IMG/VR virus record: IMGVR_UViG_3300035126_001430 | Location: 1 to 26,011 of that record | Length of the DNA: 26,011 bases | Direction: 5' to 3' (one strand) | Origin: a virus | Shown here: positions 16,606 to 26,011 of the stretch, one piece after another | Layout: each line of letters opens with the position of its first letter | Numbering within the stretch: position 1 is the stretch's first letter | Position numbers and translations under genes: made by a program | The notes under the pieces: model-generated | Database searches by the model: none | The model's input: the letters and a program-made list of their open reading frames with translations, nothing else | What the model was told of the DNA's origin: nothing

Positions 16606-16834
16606 GATCTTAAATAAATGAAGGAAAGGTGCCAGCTTTCGCCAGCTCCCATATTATTACAAATATAAAGCGCAAACGGTAGAGGCAGTGTGCCACTTTT
16701 TAACTGTCACACTAACAACTTTATATTTAGCATGTCACACTAAATATAGCTGGCGCGGGCTTGTGAACACACTAAATGTAGCTTAATTTTGCTTGTAAAG
16801 TATAAGCTCTCCAGGCGCTCAAATATACTGCCAG
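16606..16834. other. left part of the non-coding origin-like region
   Basis: No gene is seen. The stretch holds an outlying iteron-like copy (CTTTATATTTAGC at about 16719), related TCACACTAAATATAGC and ACACACTAAATGTAGC blocks, an inverted iteron copy (TTGTAAAGTATAAG at about 16793), and the 12-mer GGCTTGTGAACA at about 16758. Near 16640-16680 a minus-strand AT-rich TGTAATAAT could be a -10 for the 16045-16605 gene. Confidence 0.5.
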
Positions 16835-16909
16835 CAGACCCACGGTAACTAACACTTAGCAGACCCACGGTAACTAACACTTAGCAGACCCACAGTAACT
16901 AACACTTAG
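16835..16909. repeat. three tandem 25-bp repeats
   Basis: Three head-to-tail copies begin CAGACCCACGGTAACTAAC and end ACTTAG. Copies one and two are identical and copy three has one G-to-A change. There is no spacer, so it is not CRISPR. Adjacent to the iteron array, the copies may be initiator or partition-type sites. Confidence 0.9.
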
Positions 16910-16950
16910 CGCGGCTTGTGAACATAACAAATAAGATAAGACTTCCAGGC

Positions 16951-17243
16951 TATACTTTACACTTAACTTGTTTAATACTTTATACTTAACTAATTGATAC
17001 TTTACATTTAGTATTTGCTATACTTTATATTTAGCTGTTTGATACTTTATACTTAGCAAGTTGATACTTTATATTTAGCTAGTTGATACTTTATACTTAA
17101 CAAACTCTGATACTTTATATTTAGTAGATTGCTATACTTTAGACTTAATTTGTTTAATACTTTATATTTAGCAAACTTGTTTACTTTATACTTAACTTGT
17201 TTGATACTTTATACTTAGTAGGTTGCTATACTTTATACTTAGC
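16951..17243. repeat. AT-rich iteron array, candidate replication origin
   Basis: About 13 degenerate copies of ATACTTTATAYTTAGC (plus-strand reading) are spaced about 22 bases apart, close to two helical turns, across 293 bp. Every copy is in the same orientation. The spacers share TTG or TTGCT before the next copy. The region is very AT-rich and lies about 250 bases from the end of a RepL-like gene. This layout is typical of iteron origins. It could alternatively be an array of promoter-like or partition sites. Confidence 0.75.
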
Positions 17244-17299
17244 ATTACACCTAAACTATAACACCAACTTAAACAGTAAGCAAACAGAAGCCCCAGCTT

Positions 17300-18998: not shown

Positions 18999-19479
18999 AG
19001 TATAGATCCATATATTCTGTAGACTTCTGGTAGACAACTCTGCCTGATGATTCGTCTCGGTAGAAGACTCGGGGGGCGTGATAAATACTACCTAAGCAAA
19101 CAATGACATGTTTTACAACATCCTTTTGTTTGCGATACTTTGTGAACAGCATTGCTGTTACAGAAAAGCTCTTGCAAATAGATTCACTGTTATCTTGCAC
19201 ATACTGTTGCACAGATGCTAGAGAGAAATTGTTGCGATCGAACAATTGGGGGCGATCTAATATTTCACTTAAAAACACATCCTTTCTAAACAATCTTTTG
19301 TTGTGATCGAGAGCGGTATAAAAAGAAGCTTCGTCTTGAGCTTGCAATGGCAGACTAAATATCTCTCTATCGTAAACTAACACTTGATTTTTATTTAGCA
19401 GCATTCTCTTGACTGATCTCAGCCTTCTAATTATCTCAGCATTTGTCATTCGCAAAGCATTATTAACTTTGTAGCTCAC
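18997..19479 (-). CDS. hypothetical protein upstream of terS
   Basis: The 160-residue protein starts MSYKVNNALRMTNAEIIRRL. It is mixed helical with LDRPQLFDRNNFSLASVQQY in the middle and HVIVCLGSIYHAPRVFYRDE near the C-terminus. No known motif. The GTG start has GAGG five bases upstream, one of the clearer ribosome sites in this half. An ATG at codon 11 is the alternative. It ends at the box that precedes terS, so the two are probably co-transcribed. Confidence 0.62.
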   Translation of the reverse strand: MSYKVNNALRMTNAEIIRRLRSVKRMLLNKNQVLVYDREIFSLPLQAQDEASFYTALDHNKRLFRKDVFLSEILDRPQLFDRNNFSLASVQQYVQDNSESICKSFSVTAMLFTKYRKQKDVVKHVIVCLGSIYHAPRVFYRDESSGRVVYQKSTEYMDLY

Positions 19480-19769
19480 TTGCCCCTCACTGTTTGTCTT
19501 GCAATTGCTTCAACAATCTACTTCAACGACAAACAAAGAGCAATCTTTGACGAGAATCTCTTTCTCGCCCCCATGGCTTTCTTCTGCTGCGGGCAAGCTC
19601 TCGGATCGAGGGCCAGGAGCCTCAGGAACAGCCCTCTAGCCTCTTTGACGGGGAAACGCCTTGCCAAGGGGGCAAGCAGCCTTGCAGGCGATTCTCGAAG
19701 GGGGCGGGGGATTGAAGAAATGTGGGGGCGGGAATAAAGTGTTGACTGATTTAAGTTGCAGAAAGCCAA
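19480..19769. other. GC-rich gap with two G5CG boxes; no confident gene
   Basis: This stretch is GC-richer than its neighbours. Plus-strand boxes begin at about 19702 and 19725. On the minus strand TTGCCCCCTTGGCAA and several GCCTGC/GCAAGGC blocks can form hairpins. A minus-strand frame (Arg/Leu-rich, ending SSKIALCLSLK) is open here, but its first codons fall next to the upstream terminator and it shows no clear start. It could be a structured leader of the 18997-19479 gene or a decayed gene. Confidence 0.45.
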
Positions 19770-19770
19770 G

Positions 19771-19803
19771 AAAAATGCGCCATGCTCTTACGAGCACAGC
19801 GCA
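19771..19803 (-). terminator. intrinsic terminator after the 19832-20194 gene
   Basis: On the minus strand TGCGC-TG-TGCTC and GAGCA-TG-GCGCA pair around a GTAA loop, with a T-G mismatch pair between two 5-bp stems, followed by five Ts. Confidence 0.9.
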
Positions 19804-19831
19804 GACACACACTATTTAAGAAAGAAAGAAA

Positions 19832-20194
19832 CTACTTTACTTTCCTCCAGAACTCAGCAATATCTAACACCCATTCAGTCGCTTCGTCTTTGAAGTTCAG
19901 AGCAACAACCAATCCGTTCTGTATTCGTAGAACTTTCCACTCTTTATAGGTTTTGCCAATCTCAGGCAGTGGATACGCAGCATTTACCTCAAGAGGAACC
20001 TTATCCGTAACAGCCTGATCAATGTAGTACAGGAGCCTGTCAATCTCCTGCACGGAGCGAACGTACTCAGCCTCTTCCCAAAGCCTGAACTCCTGCTGGT
20101 CTTTCATTATGTCGCCCCGATGTTTTATCAGGGCAAGGCGCAAGGTGTTTGCGCGTATTTGGTTGTCGGGGGCGGGATTAAATAAAGTTGCCAT
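19832..20194 (-). CDS. hypothetical protein
   Basis: The 120-residue protein starts MATLFNPAPDNQIRANTLRL. A charged helical N-terminal half (LWEEAEYVRSVQEIDRLLYY) is followed by a strand-rich C-terminus (EWKVLRIQNGLVVALNFKDE, TEWVLDIAEFW). The first eight codons are themselves a copy of the G5CG box on the other strand (AATCCCGCCCCCGAC encodes NPAPD), so the box is translated here. It is the last gene before a strong terminator. Function not recognised. Confidence 0.65.
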   Translation of the reverse strand: MATLFNPAPDNQIRANTLRLALIKHRGDIMKDQQEFRLWEEAEYVRSVQEIDRLLYYIDQAVTDKVPLEVNAAYPLPEIGKTYKEWKVLRIQNGLVVALNFKDEATEWVLDIAEFWRKVK

Positions 20195-20236
20195 TGAAGG
20201 GAATTGGTGATGGGGGGCGGGAAAATGTAAACTAAA
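20168..20236. repeat. two G5CG boxes around the 20194 start codon
   Basis: Plus-strand GGGGGCGGGATTAAATAAAG begins at about 20169, inside the coding start. GGGGGCGGGAAAATGTAAAC begins at about 20215, in the gap, and runs into the stop region of the upstream gene. The second is a near-perfect consensus copy. Confidence 0.65.
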
Positions 20237-20618
20237 TGATCACTCGGGGATTATAGCACGGCATACTAAAGCCAAGCTCAAACTCAAAGACCACTAAGTA
20301 GATAACCTTGTAAATTTCCTCCATCTCTTTTTTCGCCCCCGGAAACTTTAAGGCAAACTTTTCGTATCCGCACAGGTCTTCTTCGTGAATTTCCGCGATG
20401 TCTTCAGCATCGGGAATGTCGCTGGCCGCGTGAAACATCAAATCATATTCATCGAAGCTAAATGCAAGCAGGCCCATGCCACTTGTAAACGTCAAGCTAT
20501 ACTTCTTGCAAAAAGGAACAACTACCTGATCAAAGTATTCTCTTGCTAGATTGTCAACCTGCTGATTGGCCTTCTCTTCTATTTTTTCAATCTTTTTCTG
20601 TATCTTATCAGAGTCCAT
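20232..20618 (-). CDS. hypothetical acidic protein
   Basis: The 128-residue protein starts MDSDKIQKKIEKIEEKANQQ, a helix or coiled coil, followed by FCKKYSLTFTSGMGLLAFSF, an acidic ASDIPDAEDIAEIHEEDLCG stretch and a C-terminal VIYLVVFEFELGFSMPCYN. The ATG at 20618 is preferred because an earlier in-frame ATG at 20660 would overlap the upstream gene and place the box inside the coding region. Function not recognised. Confidence 0.62.
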   Translation of the reverse strand: MDSDKIQKKIEKIEEKANQQVDNLAREYFDQVVVPFCKKYSLTFTSGMGLLAFSFDEYDLMFHAASDIPDAEDIAEIHEEDLCGYEKFALKFPGAKKEMEEIYKVIYLVVFEFELGFSMPCYNPRVII

Positions 20619-20652
20619 GACGAGGATTGGCAGAGGGGCAAGAAACTGTAAG

Positions 20653-20922
20653 CTAAACAACCATGTCAGAAAACTGCTCGTCTATGATTCTTGAAGTATA
20701 GGCATCTCTGTTCTTTTCATCATCGTACCAGTCGCTAAGCTCCTTCATATCTTGTTCGTGCTGCAGCCTTCTCTGTTCTGCGTCATGCCTCTCCTGGAGT
20801 CCTTCCAGTTGATCGGCGACTCTATCAACTTTGTACCAGTCCTTCAGTCTTCTATAGCGCTGCAGCAACTTCTCGAAGTGAGCAATCTTTCTAGATAGTT
20901 CAAGCATGGTGGGACTTTCCAT
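20653..20922 (-). CDS. hypothetical coiled-coil protein
   Basis: The 89-residue protein starts MESPTMLELSRKIAHFEKLL and is almost entirely charged helix (ADQLEGLQERHDAEQRRLQH). Met6 is an alternative start. Two box copies (GGGGGC at 20923, GGGGGCG at 20941) sit directly before the ATG. It lies between two unknown genes in the same direction. It could be a small protein-binding regulator, but no family is recognised. Confidence 0.6.
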   Translation of the reverse strand: MESPTMLELSRKIAHFEKLLQRYRRLKDWYKVDRVADQLEGLQERHDAEQRRLQHEQDMKELSDWYDDEKNRDAYTSRIIDEQFSDMVV

Positions 20923-20967
20923 GGGGGCAAAAGAAATGATGGGGGGCGAGAAAATACAAGTTAAACG

Positions 20968-21495
20968 CTACTCAATCATCCAGCCATCGTGCCACGCCCT
21001 GGCTTCTTCAATCTGCTGCTTCATCGCAGCACATAAAACCCTGGCTTCTTTCTTGTTCATTTTTCGTGGCTCCGCCTCAAAGTTTACATGGCCATGACAA
21101 TCAAACAGCCTCTGGTAAAAACTTGCCCGATGCACGGGATTTGAAGAAGTGGCTTCAAACACAAGTTCCCGAACAGACGTGCCAATAAAACTTGCAAGCG
21201 ATTGCAAATCTTTTTCTGTTCCAAACCATGCAGGATGATCCACATGAAAAGGATTGTCAGATAGCGCGATGTATTCGCCCTCCCGACCCTTGATGGCCGT
21301 CAACCTTTCGCAGAGAATTGTGTAACGCTTCCAACTTGTAGGATCGCCATAGCGATCACTTCCCTCTGGCTCAAGAATCAAAAGCTCGGGATCGTAGCAA
21401 CCCCTCTTATCCACAAGAACAAAAGCCCCGCCGTGAACAAGCGGGGTAGCATCACCGATGTTGGCGATGCAATGAAAAGAAGGCTGATTGGTCAT
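20968..21495 (-). CDS. conserved-looking protein of unknown function
   Basis: The 175-residue protein starts MTNQPSFHCIANIGDATPLV. The N-terminal HCIANIGDATPLVHGGAFVL, then YDPELLILEPEGSDRYGDPT, then RYTILCERLTAI pattern resembles proteins I vaguely recall from cyanobacteria and planctomycetes with no assigned function. The ATG at 21495 is chosen because TCTTTTTAGATCA precedes it, the leader shared by several neighbours. An earlier ATG at 21540 has no such leader. It is the second gene after promoter P1. Confidence 0.65.
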   Translation of the reverse strand: MTNQPSFHCIANIGDATPLVHGGAFVLVDKRGCYDPELLILEPEGSDRYGDPTSWKRYTILCERLTAIKGREGEYIALSDNPFHVDHPAWFGTEKDLQSLASFIGTSVRELVFEATSSNPVHRASFYQRLFDCHGHVNFEAEPRKMNKKEARVLCAAMKQQIEEARAWHDGWMIE

Positions 21496-21557
21496 TGATC
21501 TAAAAAGAAATTGTGCAGTGCCTATCTCCGCTGAAGGCAAAAGGCTTGTGAGAAAAG

Positions 21558-21923
21558 TCAGCAGGAAAAGAAAGCCCTGATAGAAGCGATGAGGGCTGAG
21601 CGTGGGGCAAAATCATACGCCCCAAAGTCAAAACACAACACCTTGCCATTCTTATTGGAAACTGTAAACTTCCATCGCCCATCTTGTTTCCTGATCTCAA
21701 GAACGACGCCATTCTTATGGGAAATGATTTCACGGGTTTCATCCATAGAGCGAAACCCATCTAACTTCCACGTTCCCCTAAGATCCGCGTCGTTAAGTAT
21801 CTTTAACCATTTATCAGCAACTCGCTGAAACTGATTTCGAGTGAAGGGGTCAGAATAAAATTCAATCTCACAATTTCCCAAAGTACGGGAAAAAAGTTGC
21901 GGGTCAAAAGTCTTGACTGACAT
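21558..21923 (-). CDS. hypothetical protein, first gene behind promoter P1
   Basis: The 121-residue protein starts MSVKTFDPQLFSRTLGNCEI. It is beta-rich, with WKLDGFRSMDETREIISHKN, VVLEIRKQDGRWKFTVSNKN and GKVLCFDFGAYDFAP. The ATG follows TTTCTTTTTCAGATT. A near-perfect promoter starts about 50 bases upstream, so this protein should be made strongly and probably early. Function not recognised. Confidence 0.68.
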   Translation of the reverse strand: MSVKTFDPQLFSRTLGNCEIEFYSDPFTRNQFQRVADKWLKILNDADLRGTWKLDGFRSMDETREIISHKNGVVLEIRKQDGRWKFTVSNKNGKVLCFDFGAYDFAPRSALIASIRAFFSC

Positions 21924-21954
21924 AATCTGAAAAAGAAATAAATGAACAGAAAAT

Positions 21955-21974
21955 AGGCAGGCCTCGGCCCACCT
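21955..21974 (-). promoter_or_regulatory. 5' leader hairpin of P1 transcript
   Basis: At the expected transcript start AGGTGGGCC pairs with GGCCTGCCT around a 2-base tip (two G-T pairs), forming a stem at the very 5' end. Similar hairpins occur after P2 and P3. Confidence 0.65.
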
Positions 21975-21980
21975 GTCTTA

Positions 21981-22009
21981 ATTATACCCTATGCAGAGGG
22001 CGCTGTCAA
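21981..22009 (-). promoter_or_regulatory. promoter P1, perfect sigma-70 consensus
   Basis: Minus-strand TTGACA (22004-22009), a 17-base spacer and TATAAT (21981-21986). The spacer contains an imperfect palindrome, CCCTCTGCATAGGG, next to the -10. Upstream is a T-rich GATTTATTTGTGC and then a G5CG box. Confidence 0.93.
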
Positions 22010-22017
22010 GCACAAAT

Positions 22018-22042
22018 AAATCATACTTTCATTTTCCCGCCC
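22018..22042. repeat. G5CG box upstream of P1, inverted relative to most
   Basis: On the minus strand GGGGGCGGGAAAATGAAAGT reads toward the promoter. Most other copies read GGGGGCG on the plus strand, so the box works, if it works, in both orientations. Confidence 0.65.
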
Positions 22043-22050
22043 CCACACAA

Positions 22051-22746
22051 TCAGTAATAGTCGCGCTCGTCAATTAACTCTGCTCTCATTGCAGAAATAT
22101 CAACAATCAACTTTGCCTCATCGCCAACTTGAACATCGCCCATCAGCCACTTATCGCACTCTTTTGCGATAGCTGGAAACAGGTAATCAGACAAGTCAAA
22201 GATGCTCACGGAAGAAAACCTCTTCCTGAACATCTGGACTCCCTTACAGGTCCAGCCAACCGTGGAATCTACGTCGAAAAGATCCTCAATCTTTTTCTCG
22301 CCCCGAACCGCAACATTGCTCTCGTCAGTATATTCGTCCCATGCTTCTTGCAGTCCGCCCATCACAGATTTCCTGATGCTGCCCATCATTCCCGAGTCCC
22401 TGAGAAAACCTCTGCAGGGTTTCGCGCAGAAGGGCTCGGAGCTTATCAGGCAATGCCTCGCCAAAGAAGCAATATCAGACTGAAGGTCGTCAATCGACAA
22501 TTGCCTTCCGCCCCGATTCATGTAGCCGTGCTGGATTCTCCCAGCAAGAAAACCTCCTAGGGCCAACAATTCATCGATGATTCCATTGGGATGAGCGGTT
22601 GCAGGATGCTCAAGAACGTCGTGAGCAATTTGTTCACCGCTCAGGCCGGGCTCAAAGTAATCCCGGCCGTTCAGGCCTCTAACAAAAACAATTCCAGGAT
22701 TGCCTGTTTCAAAGTGTTCTCTGATCTGAAGCCTGTAAGTCTTCAT
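22051..22746 (-). CDS. hypothetical protein
   Basis: The 231-residue protein starts MKTYRLQIREHFETGNPGIV. The N-terminal half has GLSGEQIAHDVLEHPATAHP and NGIIDELLALGGFLAGRIQH. The middle has four Cys and His residues (ARHCLISSEPFCAKPCRGFL) that might bind metal. The C-terminus is acidic. It is the third gene after promoter P2 and is the largest of the block. No family is recognised. Confidence 0.65.
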   Translation of the reverse strand: MKTYRLQIREHFETGNPGIVFVRGLNGRDYFEPGLSGEQIAHDVLEHPATAHPNGIIDELLALGGFLAGRIQHGYMNRGGRQLSIDDLQSDIASLARHCLISSEPFCAKPCRGFLRDSGMMGSIRKSVMGGLQEAWDEYTDESNVAVRGEKKIEDLFDVDSTVGWTCKGVQMFRKRFSSVSIFDLSDYLFPAIAKECDKWLMGDVQVGDEAKLIVDISAMRAELIDERDYY

Positions 22747-22773
22747 GGGTCTTGAGAAATAAGTGGAAAAGAA

Positions 22774-23196
22774 TCAGCAACTGAGAAAACTGTTTAGCAC
22801 AAAATCTACATCAATCATCTGCCCCGACTTGTCGTAGTAATCCACACCCGCAGAATAGGATTTAGTGTCTTCAACAATCCAGACAACCTTCATAAAAGAA
22901 GAGGTTTGCAGGCAGGAAAAATGATGCGAAAGAAAATCAAAAACAGCTGAGTTGTCATTAAATGACTCGTCGGTCGAATAGCCAATCTGAAGAATACCTC
23001 GATCAAGACTTAGGTAGCCGCTGATATTTTCGACAAACTCATCCGAGTCGTCGCCAAGATCATTGAGGTCGTCAGTGATTTCTTCTGGATGATTTACCAA
23101 GTAATCGTAGACGGACAGCGCAATTTCGCCGACACTTGCAAGAGAGGGCGGAATAGAACAGGTGGCCGAAGCGGAAGCAAAAACTACAGAAGCCAT
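22774..23196 (-). CDS. hypothetical acidic protein
   Basis: The 140-residue protein starts MASVVFASASATCSIPPSLA, continues with a helix (EIALSVYDYLVNHPEEITDD) and a strongly acidic LNDLGDDSDEFVENISGYLS, and ends DVDFVLNSFLSC. The hydrophobic N-terminus lacks the positive charges of a signal peptide. The ATG follows a 20-base pyrimidine run. It is the second gene after promoter P2. Function not recognised. Confidence 0.62.
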   Translation of the reverse strand: MASVVFASASATCSIPPSLASVGEIALSVYDYLVNHPEEITDDLNDLGDDSDEFVENISGYLSLDRGILQIGYSTDESFNDNSAVFDFLSHHFSCLQTSSFMKVVWIVEDTKSYSAGVDYYDKSGQMIDVDFVLNSFLSC

Positions 23197-23218
23197 GGCT
23201 CAAAAAAGAGAAGAAAGA

Positions 23219-23246
23219 AAAGTCGCCGCGAAGACGGCTTGCGAAC
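23219..23246 (-). terminator. weak hairpin plus pyrimidine run, possible attenuator
   Basis: On the minus strand GCCG-TCTTCG-CGGC is followed by GACTTTTCTTTCTTCTCTTTTTT. The stem is only 4 bp, so it may be a partial terminator or simply part of the next gene's leader. Confidence 0.3.
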
Positions 23247-23254
23247 AATGTGTT

Positions 23255-23419
23255 TCAGTTGGTAATTTCAAACTTGTATTTGCAAACCTCTTCTGCATCA
23301 TGATCAGAAAACGATGCTCGACCTTGCCATTTCTTTGCCTCAATTAAACCCCAGACATCTTCCAGGGCGATTAGCAAATTTTCCCTAGTGTCCGCATCAA
23401 TGGAAACAGTCAGCTTCAT
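23255..23419 (-). CDS. 54-residue protein, first gene behind promoter P2
   Basis: The ORF reads MKLTVSIDADTRENLLIALE, then DVWGLIEAKKWQGRASFSDH and an acidic/Lys C-terminus. The ATG at 23419 is preferred to an in-frame start at 23491 because the latter lies upstream of the expected P2 transcript start. It is preceded by TTCTTTTTAGATCAA. The MK..(L)TV.I opening followed by a helix is common in small phage proteins and is shared with the first gene after P3. Function unknown. Confidence 0.62.
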   Translation of the reverse strand: MKLTVSIDADTRENLLIALEDVWGLIEAKKWQGRASFSDHDAEEVCKYKFEITN

Positions 23420-23446
23420 TTGATCTAAAAAGAAAAAACGACAAAA

Positions 23447-23471
23447 GAGTGACAGACCTTGCCCGTCACTC
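23447..23471 (-). promoter_or_regulatory. 5' leader hairpin of P2 transcript
   Basis: GAGTGAC and GTCACTC form a perfect 7-bp stem with an 11-base loop (GGGCAAGGTCT) at the predicted 5' end. Confidence 0.7.
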
Positions 23472-23475
23472 CTTA

Positions 23476-23504
23476 ATTGTAACACATGCAAGGGGCGGTG
23501 TCAA
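23476..23504 (-). promoter_or_regulatory. promoter P2, near-perfect sigma-70
   Basis: Minus-strand TTGACA (23499-23504), a 17-base spacer and TACAAT (23476-23481). The upstream sequence (GATTTATTTGTACTTGACA) is nearly the same as for P1. A box reading GGGGGCGGATAAAAACAAAG on the minus strand lies just upstream. Confidence 0.9.
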
Positions 23505-23547
23505 GTACAAATAAATCGTACTTTGTTTTTATCCGCCCCCAGCAAAC

Positions 23548-23844
23548 TCAACAATGCGCGTCCCAGATTTCAACAAGAGTTCGATTTAATTCGGCATCCG
23601 AGACATTGGCGAACTGAACTTTCATTGCTTGCCCGTAGACAGTATCATCCAGAACAAACTTTTTCCACTCCTGGAAAGTCTCAAAATTGCCGATCTCTTC
23701 AACAACAAATGTGTGCTCGTTGTTGATTGTATAATCAACCATGCGCCCAATCGCTTCTGCGAGATCGCAATTTTCATCAAGAAGAAGTGAGGCGAGAGCG
23801 GAGGGTTTGGGGCGAGAAACAGGCGAAAGACCAAAGTCGTCCAT
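23548..23844 (-). CDS. hypothetical small protein
   Basis: The 98-residue protein starts MDDFGLSPVSRPKPSALASL and continues LLDENCDLAEAIGRMVDYTI, NNEHTFVVEEIGNFETFQEW and a C-terminal LNRTLVEIWDAHC. It is acidic and mostly helical. The leader TTCTTTCTTTTAATCTC before the ATG is pyrimidine-rich. It is the last gene of the P3 block. Function not recognised. Confidence 0.62.
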   Translation of the reverse strand: MDDFGLSPVSRPKPSALASLLLDENCDLAEAIGRMVDYTINNEHTFVVEEIGNFETFQEWKKFVLDDTVYGQAMKVQFANVSDAELNRTLVEIWDAHC

Positions 23845-23874
23845 GAGATTAAAAGAAAGAAATGATTGGGAAAT

Positions 23875-23905
23875 GAGGGGGGGCGGAAATAAACTTACTC
23901 GTAGT
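23875..23905. repeat. G5CG box after the 23895-24248 gene
   Basis: Plus-strand GGGGGCGGAAATAAACTTAC spans the stop of the upstream gene. It fits the consensus, with a shortened A-run. Confidence 0.5.
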
Positions 23906-24248
23906 GGGGCCTTTCTTCAGGGAAAGGCTTAGCAAAATCCTCCTCGAAGTAACTCACAAAAGAGTTGTCCTGCTGGTAGGTACTTGGGGTGTCTGAGCCA
24001 AGCACAAATGTGTAACCGCCGTAGCCAGTATCTTTTGGCGTTGGCGGCTTACCATTCGTGTAGGCTATTGTGGCTTTGCTTCTCAGCTCATGCCGCTCTT
24101 CGCTTGGGACTCTCTCAAAAAAATCCTCAAGGTCTTCGTCTGAGTAGAAAACCGATTGAACTGGTGTTCCACAAGTAAACCACCACCCTCCTTCTTCTGG
24201 GCCACCGTAAGCTTCCCAGGTTTCGTAAGTGTTGAGATAGACAGTCAT
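23895..24248 (-). CDS. hypothetical small protein
   Basis: The 117-residue protein starts MTVYLNTYETWEAYGGPEEG and continues GWWFTCGTPVQSVFYSDEDL, then EDFFERVPSEERHELRSKAT and an extended Gly/Pro/Tyr C-terminus. The ATG at 24248 has the same leader as the 24302-24640 gene (a 33-base identical block covering leader, ATG and first codon), which fixes the start against an earlier in-frame ATG. Function not recognised. Confidence 0.65.
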   Translation of the reverse strand: MTVYLNTYETWEAYGGPEEGGWWFTCGTPVQSVFYSDEDLEDFFERVPSEERHELRSKATIAYTNGKPPTPKDTGYGGYTFVLGSDTPSTYQQDNSFVSYFEEDFAKPFPEERPHYE

Positions 24249-24275
24249 GATCTGAAAAGATAAAGTGCTTGATTT
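24243..24275. repeat. 33-bp repeat, copy A (leader plus start codon)
   Basis: Minus-strand block AAATCAAGCACTTTATC followed by TTTTCAGATCATGACT. It is identical to 24635-24667. It covers the leader, start and second codon of the 24248 gene. Confidence 0.9.
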
Positions 24276-24301
24276 GATTTGACTTGCGAGGCTCCCGCTA
24301 T

Positions 24302-24640
24302 TCATCCATAAACAATTTCGCCGAAACAAGCAATTTGACAAATCACATCAGCAGCATCTGCATCAATATCGGAATAATCCCCAAAGACGGCAGATTCAAT
24401 TGAGCGTCGAATGTCTCTTCGGCAATCAACCCGCCTGGCGAAGATTGAGGCGACAGCCTCCTCAGCCGCTTGCTGAGTAATTACATGCTGGACAGACTCC
24501 TCATCAATAATCATGTAAACACGGTCCTCCCTGTTGACATGTCCAGACTTCGCCCAATAGCCAATGGAATATCCGGCGGTATCGCAAATACCCTCGAAGT
24601 CGTCCCAGGAAATTTTGAAGTCTAAGGTAATGAGAGTCAT
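24302..24640 (-). CDS. tandem paralogue B of unknown function
   Basis: The 112-residue protein starts MTLITLDFKISWDDFEGICD. It aligns along its full length with its neighbour at 24694-25038: DFKISWDDFE/DYKISWDDFE, then INREDR-type turn (HVNREDRVYMIIDEESV), and the C-terminal DIDADAADVICQIACFGEIV. Residues near the termini are better conserved than the centre. Both are acidic. The pair arose by tandem duplication. Function not recognised. Confidence 0.72.
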   Translation of the reverse strand: MTLITLDFKISWDDFEGICDTAGYSIGYWAKSGHVNREDRVYMIIDEESVQHVITQQAAEEAVASIFARRVDCRRDIRRSIESAVFGDYSDIDADAADVICQIACFGEIVYG

Positions 24641-24667
24641 GATCTGAAAAGATAAAGTGCTTGATTT
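24635..24667. repeat. 33-bp repeat, copy B
   Basis: Identical to 24243-24275, 392 bases away. It covers the leader and start of the 24302-24640 gene. Confidence 0.9.
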
Positions 24668-24693
24668 AATTTGGCTTGTGAAACTATTGCTAT

Positions 24694-25038
24694 TTACCCA
24701 TAAGCAATTTCTCCAAAGCAAGCATACTGAAAGATGATACTAGCATCCTCTGCATCAATTTCACTGTATTCATTTTCGAGTACCGCAAGTTCGATAGACT
24801 TCCACGTTGCCTCAATGCAAAACTTCTTGCGATTGAAGAGATCAGCAATAACCTTCTCGACCATTGCCTGAGAGATGTGATGATGCGTCAACTCCTCGTC
24901 CACAATCGTGAACATTCGATCCTGTTTGTTGATGTGCCACTTGTGGGCCCACCCGTCGATACCGCCGAAGCCAGCGGTGCAGCAAAGATCCTCAAAATCA
25001 TCCCAAGAAATTTTGTAGTCCAGAGAAATAAGAGCCAT
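24694..25038 (-). CDS. tandem paralogue A of unknown function
   Basis: The 114-residue protein starts MALISLDYKISWDDFEDLCC and continues HKWHINKQDRMFTIVDEELT, with the C-terminus SEIDAEDASIIFQYACFGEI before AYG. It is a full-length paralogue of the next gene. The ATG at 25038 is chosen from alignment with that gene; an in-frame ATG at 25185 would add a tail that overlaps the upstream gene. Acidic C-terminal helix (ENEYSEIDAEDAS). Function not recognised. Confidence 0.72.
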   Translation of the reverse strand: MALISLDYKISWDDFEDLCCTAGFGGIDGWAHKWHINKQDRMFTIVDEELTHHHISQAMVEKVIADLFNRKKFCIEATWKSIELAVLENEYSEIDAEDASIIFQYACFGEIAYG

Positions 25039-25049
25039 GGCTTGAAAAG

Positions 25050-25080
25050 CGTGGGGGGCGGAAATTAAATAGAAACTAGA
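25050..25080. repeat. G5CG box between 25038 and 25076
   Basis: Plus-strand GGGGGCGGAAATTAAATAGA fits the box consensus, with a shortened G/A junction. Confidence 0.5.
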
Positions 25081-25507
25081 AAGGGGGCTGAGACTCTCTG
25101 AGGTAAAATCCCCCAGATTCCCAACAAACAACAGAATCTTTCGTCGCCCAATCCGTTTTGATTCGGGCATAATAGTCGCCCTCAAGACCTGGCGTTAATT
25201 CGCCATCAATTTTGAGTTCTCCACAGAACTCTTCTTCAACCCAGGCTTCAACCTGTTCCCTGAGATCAAGCGTGGAATCTTCGTCAAACTCCACAACCCA
25301 CTCTTGCCCAGTTCGGCAATCTTCCACAAGAAGATAGGCCTCGAACGGACCTTTTTCTTCGTCGTCCTCTTCCTGCTCGGGCAGAATAAACTTGTAAGTT
25401 GCCGAGCCCTCAGCAACTTCCAATCTTATCCACTGCACTGGGCAGCTTGAGATCCACTGCTCAAAATCTTCCCCAGGAAAACCATGGGGCCAGAGATCGT
25501 TTGACAT
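25076..25507 (-). CDS. highly acidic protein, possible DNA mimic
   Basis: The 143-residue protein starts MSNDLWPHGFPGEDFEQWIS. By hand count it has about 36 Asp/Glu and 10 Lys/Arg, net about -26. Acid runs include PEQEEDDEEKG, VVEFDEDSTLDL and AWVEEEFCGEL. Aromatic residues are interspersed (FPGEDFEQW, GDYYARIKTDW). Such composition in an early phage gene is typical of DNA-mimic or anti-restriction proteins, but no named family is recognised, so that is inference. The leader TTCTTTTTCTATC precedes the ATG. It is the second gene after promoter P3. Confidence 0.68.
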   Translation of the reverse strand: MSNDLWPHGFPGEDFEQWISSCPVQWIRLEVAEGSATYKFILPEQEEDDEEKGPFEAYLLVEDCRTGQEWVVEFDEDSTLDLREQVEAWVEEEFCGELKIDGELTPGLEGDYYARIKTDWATKDSVVCWESGGFYLRESQPPF

Positions 25508-25540
25508 GATAGAAAAAGAATGAACAGCAAAAGACAATGG

Positions 25541-25696
25541 CTAGAAAATGTCTACATTGTTTTCGTCGCAGACATTCACAATCTCGGTGCCGAGAATGTC
25601 TTCGTGCGTAAAACTGTAGTCAAGGTTTTCCGCAACTTCATGCGGATCTGCTTCGTCTTTGATACGAATTTGCACAGTCAGGTGAATTGTTTTCAT
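25541..25696 (-). CDS. 51-residue protein, first gene behind promoter P3
   Basis: The ORF reads MKTIHLTVQIRIKDEADPHE, then VAENLDYSFTHEDILGTEIV and NVCDENNVDIF. The 'V..V.I......P.EV..N.DYSF.H..I..TEI..V' pattern is one I recall from many small phage and prophage proteins. The codon frame is clear, and it stands about 50 bases behind a strong promoter, so it should be real. Leader CATTTTTATC, no Shine-Dalgarno site. Function unknown. Confidence 0.75.
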   Translation of the reverse strand: MKTIHLTVQIRIKDEADPHEVAENLDYSFTHEDILGTEIVNVCDENNVDIF

Positions 25697-25718
25697 GATA
25701 AAAATGAAGAAACAAAAG

Positions 25719-25739
25719 ATGACAGACCTTGCCTGCCAT
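25719..25739 (-). promoter_or_regulatory. 5' leader hairpin of P3 transcript
   Basis: ATGGCAG pairs with CTGTCAT (one G-T pair) around GCAAGGT, a 7-base loop. The loop and its flanks (GGCAAGGTCTGTCA) are the same as in the P2 hairpin. Confidence 0.65.
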
Positions 25740-25745
25740 GTCTTA

Positions 25746-25774
25746 ATTGTACCCTACGTAGGGGCGAATGTCAA
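25746..25774 (-). promoter_or_regulatory. promoter P3, near-perfect sigma-70 with palindromic spacer
   Basis: Minus-strand TTGACA (25769-25774), a 17-base spacer and TACAAT (25746-25751). The spacer holds a perfect 12-bp palindrome, CCCTACGTAGGG (25752-25763), directly against the -10. A box reading GGGGGCGAAAAGTAAAAGTC lies upstream. Confidence 0.92.
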
Positions 25775-25817
25775 GTACAAACAAAAGAGACTTTTACTTT
25801 TCGCCCCCGACGAACAA

Positions 25818-26011
25818 TTAAACGGCGGAGCAAACAGAAGAAGCCTGCTGCCACAAAGAAGAAGCAAGCTGCATTTCCTCCGCAAAAGAAAAACCTTTCA
25901 CGCCCAAGAAAAGCTCATCAAGAGCGCATAGGGCGTGCATGTATCTCAATGTCCTCCTGCCAGATTTTGAAGTGTAATAGCTACAGGAAACAAAGAAGGG
26001 GTTGGTATGCC
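25818..26011 (-). CDS. small protein at the window edge, possibly partial
   Basis: The frame is open from the edge to a TAA at 25818. From ATG at 25940 it encodes 40 residues, MHALCALDELFLGVKGFSFA, then EEMQLASSLWQQASSVCSAV. The in-frame sequence before that (HTNPFFVSCSYYTSKSGRRT) is also open, and AGGAGG lies 12 bases before the ATG, or 3 before an in-frame TTG. The helical second half reads like protein. It could be a complete 40-residue gene or the end of a longer one. Function unknown. Confidence 0.45.
   Translation of the reverse strand, partial: HTNPFFVSCSYYTSKSGRRTLRYMHALCALDELFLGVKGFSFAEEMQLASSLWQQASSVCSAV

Follow-up and report, generated by a model that had tools for sequence, protein, structure and literature searches.

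The borders between modules of mosaic phage genomes are usually said to be without recognisable homology, and it is an old question how phages take up and lose many small genes of obscure role without breaking their expression. The PeSLs of T4-type phages were reportedly described by Arbiol in 2010 and Comeau in 2014. They are repeated elements composed of an early promoter and a stem-loop, located in a region of gene shuffling (PMC4503421). For gene 68 of phage Island3, compared with phage Brujita, recombination at a short boundary has been described, with a repeat of ~50 bp (PMC3029335). In the Cluster K mycobacteriophages, Start Associated Sequences (SAS) and an extended form (ESAS) were found; SAS is a 13-bp sequence resembling a ribosome-binding site, 5'-GGGATAGGAGCCC, and ESAS adds a 17-bp inverted repeat upstream of it (PMC3203893). 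Counterparts of SAS, in ten copies, are present in the Microbacterium phages of Cluster EF (PMC7302621).

The locus studied here lies on the minus strand of a tailed-phage contig (IMG/VR record IMGVR_UViG_3300035126_001430), in the window, by which is meant the whole stretch of 26,011 nucleotides that was analysed. Five small genes, D, A, B, C and E, are located downstream of a promoter cassette (Table 1). As with SAS, a short conserved sequence at start codons is repeated, is kept among relatives and heads genes of different families. SAS is 13 bp long and resembles a ribosome-binding site, whereas the motif found here is TTTYAGATC(A), placed after a pyrimidine tract and directly abutting the start codon, and the available text of the two SAS reports (PMC3203893, PMC7302621) describes no tie of SAS to gene-swap junctions. 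With Island3 and Brujita the locus shares the insertion or deletion of a single gene through a short repeat at the gene borders, but the repeat described there is the 3' end of a coding sequence, while here it is a leader with its start codon. An early promoter with a stem-loop, as in PeSLs, was found in separate cassettes only; in these, the hairpin follows closely on the promoter, and junctions of the start-to-start type (see below) fall in translation leaders instead. A cassette of the PeSL type was also considered as the site of the B/C copy and rejected, the leader shared by B and C being without promoter-hairpin. Two of the 12 junctions in the first set read at base level (5 and 6b) end at a promoter-hairpin cassette. 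As far as these systems are described in the sources, the leader system is akin to SAS, the closest in anatomy, and to PeSL, the closest in idea, and is set apart from both by its motif sequence, its few Shine-Dalgarno sites and its link with gene junctions. The three related records measure 47-75 kb, and the best-identity terminase matches are cyanophages of 38-41 kb; the virus is not a T4-type phage.

Table 1. Features of the locus and of related junctions (window coordinates)
Feature	Position	Strand	Remarks
Gene D	25076..25507	-	upstream neighbour; kept in L018 at 92% aa
Gene A	24694..25038	-	114 aa; matches phrog_2355; orthologues share 79% aa (L018) and 70% aa (L003)
A-B intergenic stretch	24641..24693	-	53 nt; the B leader preceded by a diverged trailer
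B leader + ATGACT	24635..24667	-	27-nt leader; same letters as C leader
Gene B	24302..24640	-	112 aa, phrog_2355; probably old paralogue of A
B-C intergenic stretch	24249..24301	-	53 nt; 8/53 positions unlike A-B stretch, all within first 26 nt
C leader + ATGACT	24243..24275	-	27-nt leader; same letters as B leader
Gene C	23895..24248	-	117 aa, unrelated to A/B; L017 homologue 66% aa
Gene E	23548..23844	-	3' part and cassette after E match L003 (75% nt)
Gene F	23255..23419	-	54 aa, leader AGATCAA-ATG; start-to-start difference from L018 (indel 8)
Promoter + 5' hairpin cassette	25716..25800	-	upstream of D, A, B, C, E
Promoter + 5' hairpin cassette	23445..23530	-	downstream of E
Promoter + 5' hairpin cassette	21951..22035	-	from profile search
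Leader/start junction of 175-aa gene at 21495	21491..21511	-	nearly same leader block in G004 and G002
Leader junction of 89-aa gene at 20922	20942..20967	-	indel 10: 207 additional nt in G004
Leader elements of putative start signal			TTTCAGATC; pyrimidine tract

Two related phages carry comparable loci, G004 (locus L018, 81-95% nt identity in matching blocks around the locus) and G002 (locus L003); the virus itself is represented a second time by G001, a longer assembly. No mismatch was present between G001 and the window over positions 19305-26011, and the identity over 20 kb was 99.995% with one gap of 1 nt; an assembly artefact is unlikely as the source of the A-B-C arrangement, because the second assembly shows the same arrangement. 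Relatives were searched with B as query (three loci), with C, D and G (two loci each) and with an alignment of A, B and the L003 copy (five loci, of which L004 and L019 are short partial matches and were left unused). A pattern search of genome contigs returned 114 stretches, with no relative among them, and none was found in the plasmid search. In INPHARED, 14 records matched B and six matched A. No Rfam family scored above threshold anywhere in the window. The preliminary description had proposed a comparison of copy number among related genomes, and the number does vary: the A/B-type gene is present twice in G001 and once each in G002 and G004, and no copy was found in G005. The two-gene order that it expected in relatives if leaders do not recombine was not seen in G002 or G004.

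The best-identity matches of the terminase and portal proteins were to Synechococcus and Prochlorococcus phages (35-37% and 26-28% aa, respectively), and the host is probably a cyanobacterium. A and B both match the profile of phrog_2355, a PHROGs family without annotated function, and no difference was found in this respect; only the C-terminal part is covered (residues 46-112 of B, E 4.1e-11; residues 39-114 of A, E 1.7e-9). Pfam gave no family at cut-off for either protein. An AlphaFold model of A, built from four sequences, had a mean pLDDT of 81, the five models being uneven (44-81). Compared with the PDB, it gave no match at an E value of 0.001 or better (best VIA-align Z 2.9). The predicted fold does match predicted phage proteins, e.g. 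BcepNazgul Q6UYK8 (E 2e-5, TM 0.79 by query), and the matches in BFVD were unnamed or uncharacterised phage proteins. The phrog_2355 proteins (B, at window 24302-24640, and its homologues) end in ~25 residues, IDADAADVICQIACFGEIVYG, whose identity between the virus and Streptomyces phages reaches as much as 80%, against near 30-40% overall for the remainder; this C-terminal stretch is likely a functional tail.

A and B are adjacent on the same strand and align over their full length with 51% aa and 59.5% nt identity, confirming the earlier view of the 112- and 114-residue proteins as full-length paralogues. Adjacent same-strand copies with a homologous spacer, as looked for in a recent tandem duplication, are present here. 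The single copies of L018 and L003 are however closer to A (Table 1) than to B (49% aa for both). In a tree whose outgroup was made up of homologues from BcepNazgul and Streptomyces phage, A grouped with these two copies, without B, at a support of 99/98, and at 93/95 once the long Nazgul32 branch (BcepNazgul) was removed. A sister relationship of A and B was not rejected by the AU test (p 0.050; p 0.179 without Nazgul32). Third codon positions differ at 61/112 sites between A and B, against 35/114 between A and the L018 copy (p 0.0004) and 47/114 between A and the L003 copy (p 0.06), and the informative nucleotide sites are almost star-like (13, 9 and 7). The outgroup proteins are 33-41% identical to B and 28-32% to A. 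An old date is probable for the pair, rather than a fresh duplication, because the L018 and L003 copies are nearer to A than B is; a later duplication with a fast-evolving B is less likely, though in keeping with the AU values. Of the tandem duplication originally proposed, the geometry of the unit and the variation in copy number hold, while a recent date is unlikely, though compatible with the AU test, given the closeness of A to the L018 and L003 copies.

The trailers of the two genes were also compared with the relatives. Both trailers of the window, the one behind A and the one behind B, have a homologue in L003, in the ~24 nt that begin right behind its single copy. L018 is without the A trailer that L003 keeps, and its A orthologue ends, at the stop codon, directly against the next promoter cassette; at L018 5338-5345, corresponding to the boundary at window 24694, a GTTGA match that includes this stop codon joins the A orthologue to the sequence following E in the window. 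The single copy of L018 may reflect a secondary loss, because its stop codon joins the next cassette directly and the trailer is missing. E is also absent between A and the cassette in L018.

When the A-B and B-C stretches are aligned, their final 27 nt plus ATGACT are identical. This run of 33 nt was correctly reported in the preliminary description as a leader and start codon shared by B and the unrelated gene C, as was the repeated unit of gene plus downstream leader; the start-to-start spacing is 392 nt. In the alignment of the units, identical runs of 11 and 9 nt come next in length, and among 100,000 shuffles a run of at least 33 matches was obtained three times. Differences are present at 8/26 positions of the trailer and 0/27 of the leader (p 0.0018, for a split that was chosen after the data were seen). 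Among 200 ATG starts of this virus, B and C are the sole pair of unrelated ORFs with at least 22 of 30 leader bases alike (29/30, ungapped). For the distal 17-mer of the leader no further site was found at three or fewer mismatches, in 46 kb of the virus and in the scanned pieces of G002, G004 and L017. The L017 homologue of C has a different leader, with GATCATG in common.

Selection accounts for some of this identity, because the leader ends in TTTTCAGATC-ATG, part of a motif conserved ahead of many genes. The general level of leader conservation was assessed on ORF sets that contain some internal ORFs as well as A and B themselves. Between the virus and G002, a median of 12/27 leader bases is kept over 12 ORFs, random pairs giving 7.7 (17 against 13.4 when gapped). 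With G004 the median is 23/27 over 63 ORFs, and 8/63 leaders are unchanged; leaders of G004 are thus often well kept, and leader identity alone is no proof of copying. Selection can explain the motif core, and copying appears the better account of the distal part, because these 17 nt were found only before B and C (at three or fewer mismatches). The copy looks young. That leader conversion is ongoing, as had been suggested, goes beyond the data, which consist of one identical leader pair in one virus where motif selection explains part of the identity.

Many early genes have a pyrimidine tract and TTTYAGATC(A) directly against the start codon. The strict motif was found eight times on the coding strand of the 46 kb of the virus and not on the other strand, with a mean of 0.09 and a maximum of one in 100 shuffles; it is present five times in the G004 part and twice in the G002 part, again with none on the other strands. 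A looser listing of AGATC-start matches gave 13 on the coding strand of the 46 kb, of which 10 precede, by inspection, ORFs of at least 54 aa behind a T-rich stretch. An SD-like tetramer was seen ahead of only 7 of 73 greedily called ORFs. Motif-bearing leaders elsewhere have mostly the ~10-nt core in common, the distal part being common to B and C alone. The core is probably under selection and is a putative start signal.

To place the locus among other gene differences, the virus was compared in colinear blocks with G004, its closest relative. Of 23 gaps, the 15 that are near-one-sided were read at base level, the other eight being two-sided. Both ends lie within -30..+12 of the ATG of an ORF of at least 35 aa in seven of the 15. 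Five of these start-to-start gaps are clean (1, 6c, 8, 9 and 10) and two contain 8 and 32 unaligned nt; in one of the latter, an 80-aa ORF stands right before A in G004 and displaces the leader of A. The other eight gaps read are not start-to-start: gaps 5 and 6b end at a promoter cassette, for example, and gap 7, the block with B, C and E relative to L018, runs stop-to-stop. Gap 2 was tried as a start-to-start case and left uncounted, since the ATG at its left end opens an ORF of only 16 codons. A random position falls inside the start zone (-30..+12) in 10.4% of draws under a null that ignores selection against broken genes, and selection for intact genes would favour junctions at gene borders anyway. 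With an automatic gene caller, applied to 11 gaps, both ends were confirmed for four (1, 6c, 8 and 10), one end for five (2, 5, 6a, 6b and 9) and neither for gaps 3 and 7; in gap 9 the caller overlooked a start that is evident at base level.

The clearest example is the junction before the 175-aa gene, where the leader block GCCTTCAGCGGAGATAGGCACYGCACA...TTTTTAGATCA-ATG heads unrelated genes, of 175 aa in the window, 83 aa in G004 and 86 aa in G002 (local protein scores 21-29), and the G004 orthologue of the 175-aa gene has a different distal leader. In three related phages, junctions are seen in short repeated leaders, with one leader heading three unrelated genes. Close relatives appear often to gain or lose whole genes at leaders of the B/C kind, and these start-to-start gene differences elsewhere in the phages agree with the earlier proposal that recombination through leaders moves genes as cassettes.

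The reading we favour, and hold to be probable with some reserve, is that A and B are old paralogues, and that the leader shared by B and C was copied recently, by recombination through it, as one instance of a gene turnover common in this phage group. B would be a start-to-start unit consisting of its coding sequence, a diverged trailer of ~26 nt and the leader of the next gene. Leader and start codon would serve as the short homology for recombination, so that whole genes could be gained, lost or swapped with reading frame and start unharmed. The B/C leader could have been copied recently by conversion, or the unit could have been duplicated and a diverged allele could later have taken the place of one copy; both would fit and leave the same picture here. 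The small early genes, with their common pyrimidine-rich leaders, few Shine-Dalgarno sites and, in several cases, an ending in TTTYAGATC(A)-ATG, would lend themselves to this. The sequences, copy numbers and junctions are observed directly, and we infer the recombination mechanism from them. Models of Erf, RecT, RecA and YqaJ gave no match in G001, G002 and G004, three records that are possibly fragments, and PHROGs assigned to 10 proteins of L037 one kinase and unknowns, without a recombinase.

A plain tandem duplication of A with its downstream leader in the lineage of this virus, with B evolving fast and the leader, as a signal for start or regulation, conserved by selection, would need no conversion. 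The geometry is exactly that expected, with the 392-nt spacing, the C leader repeated before B, a different leader before A and trailers that can be aligned; the AU tests do not reject A and B as sisters, and the leader core is a motif kept before many genes. Against this, the third positions of A and B are far more diverged than those of A and its L018 copy (p 0.0004), B is nearer to the outgroup than A, contrary to what a fast B predicts, and the distal 17 nt, which lie outside the recurrent core, are the same in B and C and unique to them. This course of events is considered unlikely. Quite unlikely is a joint import of B and C, possibly together with E, from a phage that already carried the copied leader, so that no leader event took place in this lineage. 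It agrees with indel 7, since L018 has none of B, C and E in the interval from A to the following cassette, and with the homologue of C in the distant phage L017, but the A and B trailers are homologous to each other and their first ~24 nt recur in L003, which fits a local history. Moreover, E and the cassette occur together in L003 as they do in the window, and no donor record was found among the relative loci or in the INPHARED and plasmid searches. That the two leaders are alike by chance, merely through the start-signal consensus common to early leaders, is highly improbable: the consensus is strong, as 10 of the 13 AGATC-start matches show, but other motif leaders share mainly its ~10-nt core, and the distal part belongs to B and C alone.

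Recombination through leaders, with A and B as old paralogues, remains the preferred reading, and one step further can be offered tentatively. TTTYAGATC(A)-ATG could be an SD-independent start signal in this cyanophage-like group, making early genes plug-in cassettes that are gained, lost or exchanged start-to-start while the leader stays and only the gene downstream is replaced, with the B/C leaders as a fresh footprint of such an exchange. If the leader is also the start signal, a single element would give both expression and exchange.

The promoter cassettes share the form TTTATTTGTGCTTGACA-N17-TAYAATTAAG, and no more than a few nt behind it lies a hairpin, at the 5' end of the transcript. 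Besides the three in the window, copies are present in L037, L014 and L035; a profile search found 24 in all (nine in the 46 kb of the virus, seven in the G002 part and eight in the G004 part). The hairpin has a z value of -2 or lower in 18 of the 24. Each of the three cassettes of the window is 94-96% identical to its counterpart in G004; compared with one another, the three show about 73-78% identity. The cassettes may protect the 5' ends of mRNAs or act on elongation. Elsewhere in the window, two repeat arrays are located in a non-coding stretch of about 0.8 kb: an array of three 25-bp repeats at 16833-16910 and an iteron-like array of TAAGTATAAAGTATC at 16951-17244, with about 13 copies at a spacing of ~22 bp, which are a candidate replication origin or partition site.
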